Positions 922 to 12,568 of a stretch of 34,254 bases of DNA are shown piece by piece. The notes beneath the pieces were generated by a model, which was given only the letters and a program-made list of their open reading frames with translations, ran no database searches and had not been told where the DNA came from. The position numbers were made by a program, and so were the translations under genes. This DNA comes from a virus: IMG/VR virus record IMGVR_UViG_3300010938_000097, positions 1-34,254 of that record. The stretch is one strand, 5' to 3'. Numbering within the stretch: the stretch's first letter is position 1; every line of letters starts with the position of its first letter.

Positions 922-1356
922 CTATCTGTATTGCCCGACCAACTGCTCAAACTTTCGCGCGCGTTGCCGGACCCAACTTGGGACAGATGATACTTTGCAT
1001 TTGTATTTTCGGATGAATTTGGTTGGGCCGAGATTCCATGCGCAATAAATTTGAGTGAGAGTTGGCTTCGCGTGCGTGTAGCACTCGATTTTTGCCTCGC
1101 ATAATTTCCAGTATCGAGCGGCCACCTCCGAAGCCCGAACCGGGTCGTGCGCGAAAATCTCCCAGTCTTGTTTGGAGGTTTTGGGCCCCAGGTGTGGGTG
1201 CACATCGCGCCAAGCCGAGAGATGCAATTGCCAGGCTCCTCGGGCGCGAGGGCGATCGCGCACGTCGAAATCACCTACAGCATCGTGGTTGATCCCACTC
1301 TCGAGTAATGCGAGCGCCCATAGGATGGAGCGCAAATGGAAAGAGAAAGTGCTCAT
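922..1356 (-). CDS. lytic transglycosylase / lysozyme-like muralytic enzyme (putative endolysin)
   Basis: The protein has 144 residues with the layout of a soluble lytic transglycosylase (SLT, goose-lysozyme-like) domain. A catalytic-type Glu sits at residue 19 in ALLESGINHDAVGD, the ARGAWQL block at 38-44 matches the usual ARGLMQ-type motif, and AWNLGP at 106-111 matches the AYNAGP-type motif. Such enzymes cleave the MurNAc-GlcNAc bond in peptidoglycan. There is no signal peptide, so it would need a holin to reach the wall as an endolysin, or could be virion-associated. The ATG overlaps the stop of the DnaA-like gene as ATGA. It lies far from the small membrane lysis genes at 22.1-22.9 kb, which is an odd split. 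Family assignment rests on motif spacing only. Confidence 0.7.
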   Translation of the reverse strand: MSTFSFHLRSILWALALLESGINHDAVGDFDVRDRPRARGAWQLHLSAWRDVHPHLGPKTSKQDWEIFAHDPVRASEVAARYWKLCEAKIECYTHAKPTLTQIYCAWNLGPTKFIRKYKCKVSSVPSWVRQRARKFEQLVGQYR

Positions 1357-1811
1357 GCATTGGTTTGCTGCGATTGCTGCACCCCTGCAAGTATCTCCTT
1401 AATTCTTTCTTCTAGCCCAACTATTTTGTGCCTTTCCCGGGCATCAGTCCCGATGATGTTGAGCACATGTTTGAATGCATGATTGCAGCTCGTGTAATGC
1501 CGGTTGAATTGTTTAGCTATTGCGCGGATATCGAGCGATGTGTGCCGGTGTAGCATGAACATTGCAACATGCCGGGCGAGGGTAATGTGCTGATCACGAC
1601 TTGGGCTGCACAAGCTCTCAGCGGTGACCTCGTAGTATCCGCAGACCAGGTTGATGATCAGCAATTGTTTCTGCTCGTCGGCTAGCGCGGGTTGTGTTTG
1701 CAGTGCGGCAATCTTGAGCAGGAGTCCACTGACTTTTTGCAGGAGCTCCTCGGCCTGAGATCGGTACTCTCTAAGTTGCCAATCGATTGGGTTGGGTGTG
1801 TTTATTTGCAT
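1353..1811 (-). CDS. DnaA domain-IV-like DNA-binding protein
   Basis: This is a 152-residue protein starting at the ATG at 1811; a longer open frame to 1916 exists but lies inside the preceding gene. Residues 50-120 resemble the C-terminal DNA-binding domain of DnaA: a helix with GYYEVTAESL, then R..HITLARHVAMFML, and FNRHYTSCNHA at 102-112, which parallels the DnaA signature FGRDHTTVLHA. There is no Walker A motif or AAA+ domain, so it would bind DnaA-box-like DNA without being an ATPase. The N-terminal 45 residues look helical. It overlaps the replication-initiator-like gene by 41 bases and the lysozyme-like gene by 4. A role at the phage origin, or in capturing or blocking host DnaA, is an inference. 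Confidence 0.75.
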   Translation of the reverse strand: MQINTPNPIDWQLREYRSQAEELLQKVSGLLLKIAALQTQPALADEQKQLLIINLVCGYYEVTAESLCSPSRDQHITLARHVAMFMLHRHTSLDIRAIAKQFNRHYTSCNHAFKHVLNIIGTDARERHKIVGLEERIKEILAGVQQSQQTNA

Positions 1812-3438
1812 AATCGTGGTGTGTGTTATCTGCGCGTGCGAATGCTTTCCGAATTGCGCGCAGGGTGGAATTGAGATCGGTGTGCCCGCGCATAATGCTT
1901 TGCGTGAGCTGCGCAATATCGATGTCGGATCGTTGCGTCTCGGGATTTAACCGCCGGCGGAGATACTGATAGATCTCAAGCCCATTGCGGAGCAGAAATG
2001 TACAAGATTCTGTTAGTTGTTTGGGCGGTTCAGAGAGATGGGTGCTCCCTACGTAATACCGCATGAGCGAATCCAACTTGCACTCGACCTGTTCCGATAG
2101 GTGTCGCAATTCCGAGCAATGCTTGCAGCAGACCATCGATTCAAACCGGGTGATCCATTCAGCCTCCTCGTCATCCGGTATGTCCAGATGCAAAGCTCGA
2201 CCGCAATTGGTGCAGAATGCATTCACCTTCTTGGGGATGGGTTGATCATCTGGTAGATCATCAATTGCCATCGCGATCTTGATCAGGCTTCGCTTGATGT
2301 CTTCGATCATAGCATTCCTTTGCTTATTTGCTTTTTCAGCCCGCTCTTGCTTCGACGGGCCGACGATCTTACGGGCCTCGGTCGCTTTTTGCTCCCAGGA
2401 CGCGAGTAATGCGTAAGGCGATTGTGGAAGCCATCGCCGCTGGTCGGCGGGTACCTGCTGATACCATCGCGCGATGCAATCCACCTCGCGCTCCCAGTGC
2501 TCGCGGGTGATAACATCGAGCATGAGCCGATTCTCCGCGCGATTCCACGGGTGATTAGGCTGCCGGTTGAAGATTGCCGCCAGGACCGCGCGTAGATGGG
2601 GTACGCTTGCTGTCGTGTGTTGGGTGGGTTGTGTCCGGGTTGGGGACGGGTGTGCAGCCTTGGTTGATTGGGAAGTGGTCTTAGCCGTGATCACGCTCGG
2701 ATTGGGTGTCGCTGCTGCTTTCACTCCTGCTTGCGCTGATGCTTGCGCTGATGCTGCCGTTCCTGCTTTCGCTGGCGCTGCCGCTGGTCGCGCTTGCTTG
2801 ATTATTTGTTTCATCGCTCTAGCACCACCCCCCTCGGTTGGAGTCGCATCTCCAACAATAGATCTACTAGGTAGAGGGGGAGATGTATTGCAACGATGAC
2901 TTCGTAGAGTCTCTCTATCTGTATTAGATTGTACAAAGCGAGCAATCTGATGATTTGCAAATACTTGTGTGCACTGGGATGAACAAATTGATGAATGCTC
3001 TAAGGATAGATGCGGTGATGCCGGCGCTGACGCAGGTGCTGATACCAGGTTGGAGGTGCGCAATTGGCTCGAGCACGACGATGACACTGGTGCTGATTGA
3101 ACCAGGTATTTTTCGACCGCATTCGCATCAACGCGGTACCAGAGTCGAGCAGGAGTTCCCCGCCGCTCTTCGCACCAGAAGCCCGTCGATCGAAGGACCT
3201 TCCGCGCCCCCTCCTGTTCACGCCGACTCAAGCCACAATCCTTTTGCCATTGCTGGGCCGATTTGTAAAACCATCCTGGACCAGGTCCGGATGATTTCCG
3301 GTCCGCGTAATAGCTCGACCACCAAATAGCCTCCGTAAGCATGACAAGGGCGGCCTTATTACCCCCAAGCAGAGGTAACCAATCCCAATTGGTTACTCTC
3401 GCATGCGAGACAAAATGCTTATCTAATTTAGCGGACAT
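1771..3438 (-). CDS. phage replication-initiation-like protein with winged-helix N-terminus and zinc-ribbon C-terminal half
   Basis: The protein has 555 residues. The first about 110 (WDWLPLLGGNKAALVMLTEAIWW, then KSAQQWQKDCGLSRREQ and an aromatic strand turn) look like the winged-helix domain seen in phage replication-initiation proteins. Residues about 200-270 are a low-complexity Ala/Pro/Thr/Ser linker with a duplicated 12-bp unit at 2729-2752. The next part (PNHPWNRAENRLML..ITREHW) resembles the C-terminal part of such proteins. Near residue 408 a CTNCGR pair and, about 35 residues on, a CCKHC pair could form one zinc ribbon. It follows the structured leader at 3459-3569 and overlaps the DnaA-like gene, which fits an origin-recognition or helicase-loading role. 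The function is inferred from layout. Confidence 0.6.
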   Translation of the reverse strand: MSAKLDKHFVSHARVTNWDWLPLLGGNKAALVMLTEAIWWSSYYADRKSSGPGPGWFYKSAQQWQKDCGLSRREQEGARKVLRSTGFWCEERRGTPARLWYRVDANAVEKYLVQSAPVSSSCSSQLRTSNLVSAPASAPASPHLSLEHSSICSSQCTQVFANHQIARFVQSNTDRETLRSHRCNTSPPLPSRSIVGDATPTEGGGARAMKQIIKQARPAAAPAKAGTAASAQASAQAGVKAAATPNPSVITAKTTSQSTKAAHPSPTRTQPTQHTTASVPHLRAVLAAIFNRQPNHPWNRAENRLMLDVITREHWEREVDCIARWYQQVPADQRRWLPQSPYALLASWEQKATEARKIVGPSKQERAEKANKQRNAMIEDIKRSLIKIAMAIDDLPDDQPIPKKVNAFCTNCGRALHLDIPDDEEAEWITRFESMVCCKHCSELRHLSEQVECKLDSLMRYYVGSTHLSEPPKQLTESCTFLLRNGLEIYQYLRRRLNPETQRSDIDIAQLTQSIMRGHTDLNSTLRAIRKAFARADNTHHDYANKHTQPNRLAT

Positions 3439-3458
3439 AAACGCGATACCAAGGTGAG

Positions 3459-3569
3459 AAAGAAAAGGTCATCGCCAGGAAAGCGTGGAACATTGGCCTT
3501 TTGCGCTTGAGGGAAGCGCGGCCAAACCCAGCGATGACCAAAATCATCTTCCACGCTTTAGATTGCATT
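3459..3569 (-). ncRNA. putative structured leader RNA or small RNA with pseudoknot topology
   Basis: Reading the minus strand from the expected start near 3569, the order is: B (AAAGCGTGGAA, 3559-3549), 9 nt, A (GGTCATCGC, 3539-3531), a nested hairpin C (TTGGCC 3525-3520 with GGCCAA 3498-3493, enclosing GCGC/GCGC), then B' (TTCCACGCTTT, 3490-3480), 4 nt, A' (GCGATGACC, 3475-3467), then TTTTCTTTCT. B/B' (11 bp) and A/A' (9 bp) are perfect complements and interleave, so they can form an H-type pseudoknot, or compete in practice because of the short connector. The A' strand followed by a U-rich run is terminator-like. It lies between a promoter and the replication gene. Length and processing are unknown. 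It could act as an attenuator, a translational switch or a free small RNA. Confidence 0.5.
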
Positions 3570-3575
3570 GCAACT

Positions 3576-3604
3576 AGTATCAACTCGATCACATCCAATG
3601 TCAA
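3576..3604 (-). promoter_or_regulatory. sigma70-type promoter for replication/late block
   Basis: On the minus strand a perfect -35 TTGACA (3604-3599) is followed by exactly 17 bases and then GATACT (3581-3576), a 4-of-6 match to the -10 consensus. It lies in the only large gap of the minus-strand operon between 1 and 9.3 kb. It would start transcription near 3569, just ahead of the crossing inverted repeats and the replication gene. Confidence 0.6.
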
Positions 3605-3632
3605 GAGGCCACCGCGGGACAATGCATGCATC

Positions 3633-3968
3633 TTATCTCGCCGGAGGGTGCGAGCTTATTGCCCGCGGTGGCCAAAAATTAGCACCACAGCCGGGGCATT
3701 GGCGCACGTGTCGATTGCGCAGCGACTGACCGCAATTCTCGCAGCGCGCGCGCATCGCGCAGTGCACCGCGCAAATCCAGAGCAGCGGCACGAAGAGCAG
3801 GATGAAGAGCCCTAGCAGATCGACGATGCGTGAATTCGCAGCGACCGCGATAAAGGACCACACCAGCGGCATCGCGAAGCTCGCGATCGCGCAATAGAGA
3901 CCGATGCTGATCGAGTGCCAATCAGGTTTGGTCCCGATGAGGTTGTAAGGATCAGTTATGTTGTTCAT
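3633..3968 (-). CDS. small membrane protein with C-terminal zinc ribbon
   Basis: The protein has 111 residues starting at the ATG at 3968, which overlaps the preceding gene by 17 bases; the longer open frame to 4178 lies in another gene. Two hydrophobic segments (about residues 17-38 and 46-66) are followed by a Cys-rich tail, CENCGQSL then CPGCGANF, a CxxC-CxxC zinc-ribbon pattern. The likely topology is two transmembrane helices with a cytoplasmic zinc finger. I do not recognise the family. It is the last gene before the promoter gap, in an early position downstream of the cytosine methyltransferase. A host-takeover or superinfection role would be a guess. Confidence 0.6.
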   Translation of the reverse strand: MNNITDPYNLIGTKPDWHSISIGLYCAIASFAMPLVWSFIAVAANSRIVDLLGLFILLFVPLLWICAVHCAMRARCENCGQSLRNRHVRQCPGCGANFWPPRAISSHPPAR

Positions 3969-4209: not shown

Positions 4210-5411
4210 ATTACGACTAAATAGCGAGCAATCGCCCGCCCTATTGCTTCCCCGAGAATACATGGGACCGCATTCCCAATGAGGCGTTTTGCTACCTGCA
4301 TACTCCTGGGGAATATGAACCAATCTGGGAATGTTTGGAGTCGTGCTCGTTCGCGTATGCTAAGCAGCCGATTTTGCGTTGGATGAATGTAAATAATGGG
4401 ATTAGAATCGTGAGTAGTAACAGTTGGGCCCGATTCATCTTCACGGAGGCGTTTGATGGCATTTACTGACAGATTGAATCGTTTAATTGCAAAGTTTATT
4501 CCGCGTTTTAAGGCCGCAGGATTATATTCACCTTGTCGTAATTTCTCGCAATCACGCACGAACTTCTCTGATATTCTCGGGCTGACATGCATTGTGAGAC
4601 GTGATGAGTGCTCTATCTCCAAGGTATTATACAAGAATCGTGACCCGAATCGACAGATGTGTTTATGCCGCAGGTGGGAATCGTAGTCTCGCTCGCGTGG
4701 TTGATTGTCGAGGTCTAGAATCGGTAAATCACCAATCGCCTCCAACAGTGTTACAGGTGACTCCATTTTGCTGAGTTCTGGGAATAATTCAGGTGATGTG
4801 CTTTCTTCCTTCTCACAAGTTGCATGCGTCGGTGGATGGTAATACTCGACATCGCAGAATGTCGTTATATCCCGCCGTGATCCAACAATGAATATCCTCT
4901 TGCGATATTGCGGAGCACCGTATCGTGATGCGCAAATCGTATTGATGGATACGCGATACCCCATTGCTTGTGTCTCTTTTATGATCTGCTCAATCGTCGT
5001 TCGCTCGACGAGCTCCTCCCTCAAAATCCCCTGGATATTCTCCATGATAAAAACCAAGGGTTTAAAATAGTCCACAAATCGCAGGAAATCGCGATATAGA
5101 TAACTACGATGATCACATTTGCTAGATATGCTATCATTTAGATTTTTTGCGGTTGAGAATGATTGGCACGGTGGTGATCCGATAATCACATCGGGGTGAC
5201 ACGGGATTAATTCACCGATCGCGCTTGGGTTGATCTTGGTAATATCTTGACAGAGGGTGATCGGTACATTGGGCAGGTTGATTTTGAATGTCTCGATCGC
5301 GACGGGATCAAAATCGATTGCGCAGAGTGGATGGAAACCGGCGCGCTCGAATCCAAGTGAAAATCCTCCGCACCCGCAAAACAAATCAAGGTATGTCCAG
5401 GGCTTAGGCAT
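4206..5411 (-). CDS. dcm: DNA (cytosine-5-)-methyltransferase
   Basis: The protein has 401 residues, near the usual length for this family, starting at the ATG at 5411 (a TTG at 5423 is a poorer choice). All main C5-MTase motifs are visible in order: motif I DLFCGCGGFSLG (9-20, SAM binding), motif IV GSPPCQSFS (78-86, catalytic Cys82), motif VI MENIQGI (123-129, usually ENV), motif VIII YGAPQYRKR (164-172), a target-recognition region around 200-330, then motif IX near RERARLQTFPDW and motif X GNAVP. The enzyme would transfer a methyl group from SAM to cytosine C5 at an unknown site. No restriction endonuclease lies beside it, so it is probably an orphan phage MTase used against host restriction. 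It overlaps its neighbours at both ends. Confidence 0.95.
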   Translation of the reverse strand: MPKPWTYLDLFCGCGGFSLGFERAGFHPLCAIDFDPVAIETFKINLPNVPITLCQDITKINPSAIGELIPCHPDVIIGSPPCQSFSTAKNLNDSISSKCDHRSYLYRDFLRFVDYFKPLVFIMENIQGILREELVERTTIEQIIKETQAMGYRVSINTICASRYGAPQYRKRIFIVGSRRDITTFCDVEYYHPPTHATCEKEESTSPELFPELSKMESPVTLLEAIGDLPILDLDNQPRERDYDSHLRHKHICRFGSRFLYNTLEIEHSSRLTMHVSPRISEKFVRDCEKLRQGEYNPAALKRGINFAIKRFNLSVNAIKRLREDESGPTVTTHDSNPIIYIHPTQNRLLSIRERARLQTFPDWFIFPRSMQVAKRLIGNAVPCILGEAIGRAIARYLVVI

Positions 5412-6089: not shown

Positions 6090-7233
6090 GCGATTCCTCA
6101 ACTGATGGTAATGACTTGATGGTCGTAATGATCGGCGTGTCCTCGCGCGTGGTTGTGCAACCATCGGTGGCTGATCGGTAGATCATCTCAGCCTCTTTCG
6201 CACTGCATCCATGCACGCGCCGGATCGCGTCGAGCAGCTTGCTCTTCTGCACCTGGCAGCACCCGAAGAAATCTGCTGGTGTCCAACCTAGCGTAGCCAA
6301 TCGCTTACCAACTGTGATGGGGTCGGTGATGATCTGCACTTTACGCCCGGGCTTCCGGCACAAACCCACCTTGGCAAGTTCGTCATCACTTAGATGGCGC
6401 AAGCGCTCTTTCACGCTCGCAAATAATCGCTCAGCGTAAGCTATCCTGCGGAAAATATAAGCGCAAGATTCAGCCGGTAATTGACCCACGAATTGGTCAA
6501 TATCTTCGCGTGAAGAATCTTCGCGGAGAGTCGCCTGGACGGGACCGAGCGCCCATCGCTGGTGTGTGGGGCAAATCGTTGTAGCCGGGCAGTATTTGCA
6601 TTGCGACTCGCCTGGGACCGGAGTTAGCGGCATCAATCCCTTCGACATCAGCATGCACTCTTCAGCGATCACTACACAATCAAGACTGATTGCGCGGATA
6701 TCATCGAGATCATACACGCATTGATTGATACCAGGATCACCCTCAGGCTGGATGATCGCAGTGATGATTTTGCTCGTGGATACCGGCTCGGCCATGCGAT
6801 GTTCGCGCTCGTAGCATAAGAGCGCAGCCAATGCGCGCAATTGCCAGTTCGATTTCGCCAACTCGACCGGTTCAGAACCCGTCTTGTAATCACAGATCAA
6901 AGCCACATCTTCGTGCTCGACAATAAGGTCCGCCTGGCCGGAGAAGAGATCCTTGTACCAGAGCCGTATCTCGCGGCGCTTGGTCCCACGATCCAAGAGT
7001 GCAAAAGCCTCAAGCAGCTCGGACTCGAGCGCGAGACACCGCTCGTAAATAGCTTGTTCACGGTCGTCGAGGGCGACCTCTTCGCCGGCCAATCGCCGGT
7101 GAATGCGTGTCCCACTCTCGGCCTCGGGCGAGGTCGTGATCGGGCATTGTTGCGCAAGTGCGAAACTCGCGCGACAGAGTGCATAGCGACCGAATGCACT
7201 CGCACTGGGATGACCTTTGCGTGGATCGTACAT
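6064..7233 (-). CDS. RecB/Cas4-like PD-(D/E)XK exonuclease (DUF2800-like), partner of RecT
   Basis: The protein has 389 residues. The ATG at 7233 follows AAAGGAGG, one of the clearest Shine-Dalgarno sites in the window, located inside the recT 3' end (TAATG junction). PD-(D/E)XK features are SGTRIHRRL (His45), SGQADLIV (Asp102) and CDYKTG (Asp115, Lys117). Cys20 together with Cys212, Cys215 and Cys221 gives the AddB/Cas4-type CxnCx2Cx5C pattern for a 4Fe-4S cluster. It would degrade one DNA strand from ends to give ssDNA for RecT. Residues beyond about 270 form an extra C-terminal region (helical, with GCCQVQKSKLL) whose role I do not recognise. Confidence 0.82.
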   Translation of the reverse strand: MYDPRKGHPSASAFGRYALCRASFALAQQCPITTSPEAESGTRIHRRLAGEEVALDDREQAIYERCLALESELLEAFALLDRGTKRREIRLWYKDLFSGQADLIVEHEDVALICDYKTGSEPVELAKSNWQLRALAALLCYEREHRMAEPVSTSKIITAIIQPEGDPGINQCVYDLDDIRAISLDCVVIAEECMLMSKGLMPLTPVPGESQCKYCPATTICPTHQRWALGPVQATLREDSSREDIDQFVGQLPAESCAYIFRRIAYAERLFASVKERLRHLSDDELAKVGLCRKPGRKVQIITDPITVGKRLATLGWTPADFFGCCQVQKSKLLDAIRRVHGCSAKEAEMIYRSATDGCTTTREDTPIITTIKSLPSVEESHGENVAND

Positions 7234-8372
7234 TATGCGCCTCCTTTATAAAGCTGGAGTGATCGCAGGATGCCGGTCTTATTTTTGAGTAACCAACTAG
7301 CATCAGCATCCGAGAGATCAGCGAATGATGGGACCGATGCAAGATTAGGTCGGAAACCTTGCTCGACCGCAACGTGCTGGAGATCGTTGTAGGTGCATCC
7401 GGCACCCAAGATGAGCGACTCAACCTGCGCTTGGAGAGATCCAGATTGCACTGTTGATGCAGTGGGCGGTGGCTGCGGTGCTGTCGGTGCTTCTTCCGAT
7501 ATTTCTTCGGGTACTTCCTCATCTTTCTCGCTCGTAGCTTTCGGGGTGTCCGCAGCATCCCCGAAGACTTGCTCGATCGAAGATTGCGAATCGCGGATCT
7601 GAGCTAATGCGGAATGGACATCGACAACCTGCGCAGCGGTATCCTCAGCTTCCAATGCGTCGAAAATCTCCGCTGGGAATGGGATTGTTTTCGCCCCGCG
7701 CCGTAGTGTGGTCTTCTTTGCCATCTCGGCCCAGTGTGTTTTCCACGGGCCCGCATCAGGATTGTTTGAGCACCGGCGCACAGCCTCGATCTCATCGCGA
7801 CTCATGACTTCACATTTGGGTGGTCCATCGCGGAATCGGAAGATCGTATAAGCAGCATAAGGTTCACCGCGCGGTTTGCGAAAATCGATGATATGCTTCT
7901 CGATGATACCGAGATTGTAAACAAACACATCATTCTCGCACACGATATCCGAGTGCACATTCGCGATCGCCGGGTTTCGCATAATGAGCTCGACCAGCCC
8001 CTTATAATCAATAATGAGCTGGCACTCCAGCGTGCCTCGCCGGCGATTCCCGAATGGGATGAGATGGGCCCGCCGGCCATCCGGCTCGAGTCCGAGCTGG
8101 CTCAAGGTGAGGAGACAATTGAAAACTGAAGCTTTATCGCACTCGAGCAGCTTCGGAGTCCGCGTGATCGTCGTGATCGCAATGCGCAAAAATCGATCGG
8201 GTGATAGATGCTTGGGTAACGCTTTCGCGACAGCCGCGCGGAACTCAGGCCCCTCGATAAGGGTGCGCAATGTTCGACGCGAGGGTGCTACCACCGGCGC
8301 TACCGGTGGCGCTACCGCTGCTGCTGGTGTTGGTGAGGTTGGTCCTGTTGATTTTTCGGGTGGCTTATTCAT
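7233..8372 (-). CDS. recT: RecT-family ssDNA-annealing recombinase
   Basis: The protein has 379 residues and overlaps the preceding gene as ATGA. After a Pro/Ala-rich N-terminal tail (1-30), the RecT core is recognisable: FLRIAITTITRTPKLLECDKAS, then LGLEPDGRRAHLIPFGN, ECQLIIDYKGLVELIMRN, and GPWKTHWAEMAKKTTLRR. The C-terminal about 130 residues are an acidic linker plus a small domain. RecT proteins bind ssDNA and anneal complementary strands without ATP. With the exonuclease directly downstream it forms a two-component phage recombination system like RecE/RecT or Red. The position early in the operon fits expression soon after infection. Confidence 0.92.
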   Translation of the reverse strand: MNKPPEKSTGPTSPTPAAAVAPPVAPVVAPSRRTLRTLIEGPEFRAAVAKALPKHLSPDRFLRIAITTITRTPKLLECDKASVFNCLLTLSQLGLEPDGRRAHLIPFGNRRRGTLECQLIIDYKGLVELIMRNPAIANVHSDIVCENDVFVYNLGIIEKHIIDFRKPRGEPYAAYTIFRFRDGPPKCEVMSRDEIEAVRRCSNNPDAGPWKTHWAEMAKKTTLRRGAKTIPFPAEIFDALEAEDTAAQVVDVHSALAQIRDSQSSIEQVFGDAADTPKATSEKDEEVPEEISEEAPTAPQPPPTASTVQSGSLQAQVESLILGAGCTYNDLQHVAVEQGFRPNLASVPSFADLSDADASWLLKNKTGILRSLQLYKGGA

Positions 8373-12201: not shown

Positions 12202-12228
12202 CCCACCGGTGACCCCGGTGGGTTTTTT
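12202..12228 (+). terminator. Rho-independent terminator ending the five-gene cassette
   Basis: The stem CCCACCGG (12202-12209) pairs with CCGGTGGG (12215-12222) around the loop TGACC, followed by six T residues. It has the same architecture as the terminator at 13174-13200, with the inner two base pairs changed in a compensatory way. Confidence 0.9.
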
Positions 12229-12568
12229 GTTACCGCGCGGGCATCGGCATTTATCCGCTCTGGAGCCTGGTCGCCGTCGCCCTGCTGGCTCGTCCATGCG
12301 GCACCCCGCGCGGTCAGAAAGACTCCTCTTCGCCCGAGGCCTGAGCCAAGCCCAACGTCACGCCCTGGGCATTCGCCGACGGAAATACGGCTCTTAGCCC
12401 GCGCCCAGCTAGCCGGCCTTCTGCCGGATGATAGTGCATCTCGACGAGGAGGAATGGGTCCAGGAGCAAATCCGCGGACCCACCACCAACAACGAATTGA
12501 TCGTGCTGGACGGCTTATTAACGTTTTGACACTTTCCTTTAACAGATCTTTGATCTATTAAAGCTACG
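12229..12568 (+). other. stretch between terminator and DruA gene; one 33-codon open frame, no clear gene
   Basis: The first about 200 bases are GC-rich with no supported gene. A short open frame at 12428-12529 starts with ATG and has 33 codons ending LIVLDGLLTF. It could be a remnant or a small peptide, and no family is recognised. The last about 50 bases before the DruA start become AT-rich (ACACTTTCCTTTAACAGATC), so a promoter for the DruA gene may lie there, but I cannot define its boxes. Confidence 0.35.

Follow-up and report, generated by a model that had tools for sequence, protein, structure and literature searches.

Gene order and anatomy of the leader

The stretch of DNA analysed here (the window) is a virus record of 34,254 bases in which all recognised genes lie on the minus strand. 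A leader region was located in the gap between a small zinc-ribbon-like gene and the gene of an O-like replication initiator (rep; 555 aa, 1771..3438, minus strand), the product of which matched PHROG 9773 (E = 1.4e-20) and could be aligned with O-like proteins of named phages; the replication gene that an earlier note on this DNA had placed behind the leader was thereby identified. The next gene after rep (1353-1817, minus strand) encodes a protein with a DnaA C-terminal domain (Pfam Bac_DnaA_C, 2.3e-16).

Examination of the minus strand revealed a sigma-70-type promoter, TTGACA-17-GATACT (3576..3604), with the -35 box TTGACA at 3604-3599, a 17-nt spacer and the -10 box GATACT at 3581-3576, agreeing with the consensus at 10 of 12 positions; a promoter match of this kind is unremarkable by itself, 0.9 being expected per 1.3 kb. 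From these letters, transcription is predicted to start near 3569. The promoter is followed by the 5′ arm of a helix, P1 (AAAGCGTGGAA, 3549..3559), which pairs perfectly over 11 bp with its 3′ arm (TTCCACGCTTT, 3480..3490), and by the 5′ arm of a second helix, P2 (3527..3539), consisting of GGTCATCGC (3539-3531) and TGGG. The 3′ arm of P2 (3467..3479) consists of CCTG and GCGATGACC (3475-3467), so that P2 has 9 perfect base pairs, or 13 with the adjoining UGGG/CCUG when G-U pairs are counted. An inner hairpin of 6+6 bp, P3/P4 (TTGGCC GCGCTT-CCCTC-AAGCGC AAAA GGCCAA, 3493..3525), stands between the 5′ and 3′ arms, and a U-rich tail (TTTTCTTTCTC, 3456..3466), the run of which is interrupted by a C, comes directly after P2. 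A GC-containing stem with a U-tract directly behind it and a gene ahead, as in an intrinsic terminator, is thus found in P2 (3539-3527/3479-3467) and TTTTCTTTCTC, and we treat P2 as a putative terminator stem; 17 bases separate the end of the U-tract from the rep ATG at 3438, which lies 28 nt on from the first base of the tract. The order of the parts is P1 5′, P2 5′, hairpin, P1 3′, P2 3′ and U-tract, with P1 and P2 crossing, 9 nt linking the P1 5′ arm to the P2 5′ arm, and the P1 3′ arm directly abutting the P2 3′ arm. The earlier note had read from this region the promoter, the two interleaving repeats (11 bp, 3549-3559 with 3480-3490; 9 bp, 3531-3539 with 3467-3475), the inner hairpin and the U-rich end, and all of these were recovered with coordinates and pairings correct.

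The same note had held that such repeats were unlikely to arise by chance. Of 4,599 Markov-shuffled 34-kb windows, 35 (0.8%) had two perfect helices of at least 9 and at least 11 bp that cross within 130 nt, and therefore the crossing repeats alone are suggestive, not decisive; it is for the whole anatomy, in which the P2 3′ arm has the P1 3′ arm close upstream and the U-tract behind it, that the claim stood, as no such arrangement appeared in 2,215 shuffled windows. The nested part of the leader had a folding energy z of -4.2 relative to shuffles. It was also noticed that a second strong inverted repeat (3607-3673; 12 bp perfect, 16 pairs with extension, folding z -4.3) straddles the zinc-ribbon-like gene's stop codon and stops 2 bases short of the -35 box, with no U-tract on either strand. 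Elsewhere in the window, an imperfect 25-nt inverted repeat (12226-12320, 76% complementary, arms 45 nt apart) showed no significant folding on either strand.

Leaders with the same order in other phages

Searches with the window leader itself gave no relatives. No Rfam 15 family was matched at gathering score, and at E values up to 5 the only match was isrG, with 10.5 bits against a cut-off of 100. The leader and its arms, used as sequence queries, had no match among INPHARED phages or IMG/VR, nor did the Rep protein as a single query, and the nearest phage by structural genes, found through terminase relatives (G001), has a different replication module without the element. Literature searches returned no description of such a crossing-helix leader, which, together with the Rfam result, agrees with the earlier note, which knew of no described phage element with this order. 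Since no homologue of the window leader was found, its helices have no covariation of their own.

The O-like domain was then aligned with its named phage relatives, and 80 IMG/VR loci encoding it were collected. A scan for crossing helices upstream of the O-like genes singled out two of the 80 loci (L098 and L102), in which the same order is present just before the gene: promoter, P1 5′ arm, linker, P2 5′ arm, hairpin, P1 3′ arm, a CCTG opening the P2 3′ arm, U-tract and initiator. One of the two has the P1 arms TGGGAAACTGG/CCAGTTTCCCA, the other TGATAAGCGC/GCGCTTATCA. A pattern derived from these two leaders was run over the viral collection irrespective of genes and yielded a family of eight members (family A: L122, L123, L124, L125, L127, L132, L133 and L135). 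Four of the eight stand directly before replication initiators (O-like in L122 and L133, of other types in L123 and L132) and two before a DNA helicase (L125 and L135); the L127 element is followed by an unknown gene, that of L124 by a small ORF and, about 400 nt further on, an O-like initiator. The elements lie on the same strand as the replication genes and a short distance upstream of them.

In the family A alignment (n = 8), 95.8% of cells were paired, compared with 39-52% when the partners were slid. Two-sided changes were seen at six pairs of P1 and three pairs of P2, and no shuffle attained the covariation score. Compensatory changes are thus present in both crossing helices of family A, and this covariation indicates that both are under selection for pairing. 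In the P1 state the P2 5′ arm sits inside the P1 loop, within a small invariant hairpin of its own, GCCUU...AAGGC, and the family shares a conserved core, GGCGGGUCAGGCAAC, and a 5′ hairpin with GUGACG. In every one of the eight members, the loop UGACG of the latter could base-pair with that of P3, which reads CGUCA or UGUCA; a loop-loop contact is suggested, not demonstrated, by these letters, because the pairing varies on one side only. Attenuation by a leader peptide was considered for family A and rejected, as substitutions in the open frame are non-synonymous, which argues that the family conserves RNA rather than peptide.

No Rfam family was matched by L098 or L102 at E values up to 1, and in the loci of four further members only a tRNA was matched at gathering score. 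DNA-similarity searches for family A in INPHARED phages and PLSDB plasmids gave nothing; 62 pattern matches in the genome collection included no true member, and its covariance model had no match in 797 genomes at an E value of 1e-4. The window shares with family A the order P1 5′, P2 5′, hairpin, P1 3′, P2 3′ and U-tract shortly after a promoter, whereas the core GGCGGGUCAGGCAAC and the GUGACG 5′ hairpin are absent from it, and the family A covariance model (R1) had no match in the window at E values up to 5. As no leader homologue was found, the family A model did not match and G001 is without the element, the tie of the window to the other elements is purely one of architecture. By analogy of architecture, and not from covariation of its own, the window leader probably works alike and may belong to one class with them.

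A topology descriptor (P1/P2/hairpin/P1′/P2′ plus U-tract), designed after the window and L098/L102 had been seen, was run on 2.95 Mb of fetched loci, both strands counted. Besides the window and family A, it matched two sequence types found afterwards, one in L016 and one in L018, L019 and L020, which are unlike each other, the window and family A; all lie in phages related to the window via RecT. L016 has two copies, one before a gene for a DnaD-like initiator and one before an HNH gene, and the elements of the other type precede a helicase of the L125/L135 type or an HNH gene. Most of the recovered elements have a replication initiator or a DNA helicase behind them. Shuffled sequence amounting to 124 Mb gave no match that reached a P1+P2 of 24 and three that reached 22, compared with at least 24 in the window and in all named elements except L123, whose 7-bp P1 is under the descriptor minimum. 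Relatives of the helicase that some elements precede do not in general have the element, and a search for relatives of the L016 initiator gave the initiator alone. No strong descriptor match was found in lambda (30-48.5 kb), P4, HK022, phage P1 (first 50 kb) or N15.

It was also noticed that both L016 copies (4799-4886 and 6860-6947) and the L018 element (7352-7458) have TGTGCGT in common close to the inner hairpin, which may be another conserved core. The L018 element is the same RNA as that at 4942-5048 of L019, a near-identical phage, with the helicase next in one contig and an HNH endonuclease next in the other; the HNH gene seems to have been inserted immediately downstream of the leader.

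Folding order and a possible switch

Folding was computed for the window and nine other elements with programs that ignore pseudoknots. In all ten, P1 was complete in the transcript reaching to the end of the P1 3′ arm (cut before P2′), and the minimum free energy (MFE) structure of the full transcript had P2 instead of P1. When six elements were folded base by base, the MFE flipped at points from 6 nt before the end of P2′ to 8 nt after it, and in the window at the last base. The computed folds thus place P1 before P2 and bring the two close to balance.

In the cut transcript of the window, the MFE structure also contains a small hairpin, PA (GAUGAU-UUUG-GUCAUC, 3533..3548, minus strand), which could possibly hide the terminator 5′ arm in the P1 state. 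PA was matched by 17% of random linkers of genome composition and by 0.5% of shuffles of the window linker, and it is weak by itself because so many of the former do as well. P1 and P2 have no bases in common, so that their exclusivity rests on geometry and, weakly, on PA. To judge from the geometry, the two helices at full length would strain one another: the linker of 9 nt has to span P2, and there is no gap between P1′ and P2′. A pseudoknot in which both are partly formed is possible. As to the pseudoknot topology proposed in the earlier note, the helices do cross and a static pseudoknot could exist, but the data are explained no less well by P1 and P2 folds that exclude each other.

Taken as a whole, we consider the leader to be a cis-acting transcription attenuator, an RNA switch controlling the replication operon, with a probability of about 0.6. 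A built-in on/off switch is probable because the same crossing fold, in different letters, recurs before replication genes of other uncultured phages. RNA polymerase would initiate near 3569, and as the leader emerges P1 would close first around the inner hairpin, holding the terminator 5′ arm in its loop. Once the last leader bases are made, this arm could pair with P2′ instead, giving a long stem directly before the U-tract that would end transcription ahead of the replication initiator. The winning fold would then decide on rep transcription, P1 being the early, read-through-favouring state and P2 the terminator; conditional termination is what we infer for the window leader. Candidate deciding factors are a phage or host protein, a small molecule, the speed of the polymerase, or stable coexistence of P1 and P2 as a pseudoknot.

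Two other readings also take the region as RNA. It could be a separate small RNA of about 110 nt, transcribed from its own promoter to its own terminator, that targets a protein or another RNA in trans while rep is transcribed from elsewhere. The promoter, RNA and terminator do make a complete unit, with the 5′ end locked in P1 and the 3′ end in P2, and the highly conserved core of family A and its possible UGACG/CGUCA loop-loop contact, with pairs kept in all eight, would suit such a molecule; yet in family A the element stays close to replication genes, upstream of them and on their strand, the identical RNA of L018 and L019 before two different genes is what a leader would show after gene insertion, and the P1 sequences vary freely, which fits a structural role in cis, so that we find a trans-acting RNA unlikely. 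Still less probable is a static pseudoknotted terminator that has no regulatory part and only shields rep from transcription arriving from upstream or reduces its basal level. P2 and the U-tract are a plausible terminator and P2 is the end state in 10 of 10 elements, but an insulator needs no P1, which is complete until the termination point and is preserved by compensatory changes in family A.

That the inverted repeats are accidents within a coding sequence seems improbable. A 67-codon ORF (3631-3428, minus strand) spans the leader, begins 1 base past the preceding stop codon and overlaps the rep start, as in tight gene junctions, and its codon score of 0.12-0.13 (gene mean 0.19, off-frame ORF mean -0.04) exceeds that of 95% of same-strand off-frame ORFs. 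However, 21% of antisense ORFs reach that level, the GC content by codon position (0.47/0.41/0.60, against 0.58/0.48/0.55 in genes) is not gene-like, PHROG and Pfam searches with the ORF gave no match, and the structure was met in none of the 2,215 shuffled windows. We give slightly less credence again to an element acting as DNA, with the inverted repeats as binding sites at a replication origin: the leader adjoins rep and the repeat at 3607-3673 is nearby, but interleaved repeats are an unusual layout for operators or iterons, G-U pairs lengthen P2, the promoter and U-tract confer RNA polarity, and the covariation in family A preserves pairing, not sequence.

Known leader RNAs and the meaning of the element

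The cis-acting attenuator that we favour was compared with known systems. In phage P4, the CI RNA brings about premature termination in the leader of the replication operon through RNA pairing and needs a processed trans-acting RNA. The window resembles it in a putative leader termination ahead of phage replication genes governed by RNA pairing, but no trans-acting RNA was seen for the window, and P4 had no descriptor match. Control of plasmid rep genes, as in pT181 attenuation or the IncB/IncI pseudoknot, likewise lets RNA folding ahead of a replication initiator decide expression, and needs an antisense RNA from an opposing promoter. The earlier note had seen a likeness to this type of control, which we did not find: between 3000 and 4300 the only promoter-like site at scan threshold was that of the leader itself, none opposing it, and the U-tract comes directly after P2, as in an intrinsic terminator with a rival fold upstream. 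The reading of that note is thus partly supported, for a structured RNA but not for plasmid-style antisense control. HDV-like ribozymes have a short J1/2, a P1 of 7 bp and, after P4, a catalytic C in J4/2; their topology is related, but in the window J1/2 is 9 nt, P1 is 11 bp and P1′ abuts P2′ without P4, and there was no Rfam match, so that this candidate was rejected. The C4 antisense RNA of phages P1 and P7 (RF01695) is also a leader RNA with short paired segments controlling downstream genes, but its order in phage P1 (a1-b1-b′-a′) is nested whereas that of the window is crossing, and it was set aside with no Rfam covariance-model or descriptor match.

The timing of phage replication is commonly attributed to repressors and to protein antiterminators. 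If true, an RNA switch in a replication leader would be an additional layer of control on this timing. A leader attenuator is a known kind of element, and there is a real chance that a broader class of phage RNA switches, not yet catalogued, includes the window. In its full form, a new class defined by topology would comprise crossing-helix attenuators after early replication-gene promoters of unrelated uncultured phages, one family having a loop-loop contact, and would respond to a specific infection signal (a phage protein, a nucleotide or the state of the polymerase); this we regard as possible but doubtful. The window and family A have one architecture but no sequence relationship, which suggests that such phages either converged on a single design or kept the fold fixed while the sequence changed very fast.

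Two RNAs with cited descriptions come near in other respects. The HK022 putRNA, of about 70 nt with two stem-loops, binds RNA polymerase and suppresses distant terminators (PMC9378689); like the window leader it is a phage RNA right after an early promoter, and it acts in cis on transcription as the window leader would, but it is without a terminator of its own. It was rejected as an identification, as put is defined by two consecutive non-crossing stem-loops (PMC9378689), whereas the window helices cross and carry their own putative terminator, and HK022 had no descriptor match. Closest in logic, by analogy, is the HMP-PP (thiS) riboswitch (PMC6478431), in which the terminator contains a small embedded aptamer that has a P1 of its own and possibly a pseudoknot. 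In both, a compact leader structure would compete with one long terminator stem and the decision would fall within the last nucleotides made; the riboswitch differs in serving bacterial thiamin genes, in its known ligand and in sequence and layout.

Family A is a well-defined RNA family with covariation in each of its crossing helices and no Rfam entry, and is thus directly testable. Parts of it were also seen apart from complete elements. In L205 (1950-1500, minus strand), an extra copy of the family A 5′ hairpin lies behind its own promoter-like -10 box and ahead of a tRNA (Rfam RF00005, detected in the overlapping locus L127), without P1 and P2, and is followed by a second promoter-like -10 box and the complete element; to judge from this arrangement, the 5′ hairpin may be a leader module of its own. 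L199 (11270-11335) holds a remnant lacking the 5′ half, in which a 14-bp hairpin is followed by TCTCAAAGGGCTTTTTG, corresponding to the family A 3′ arm and U-tract, and it lies ahead of a small ORF that is itself upstream of an O-like initiator.
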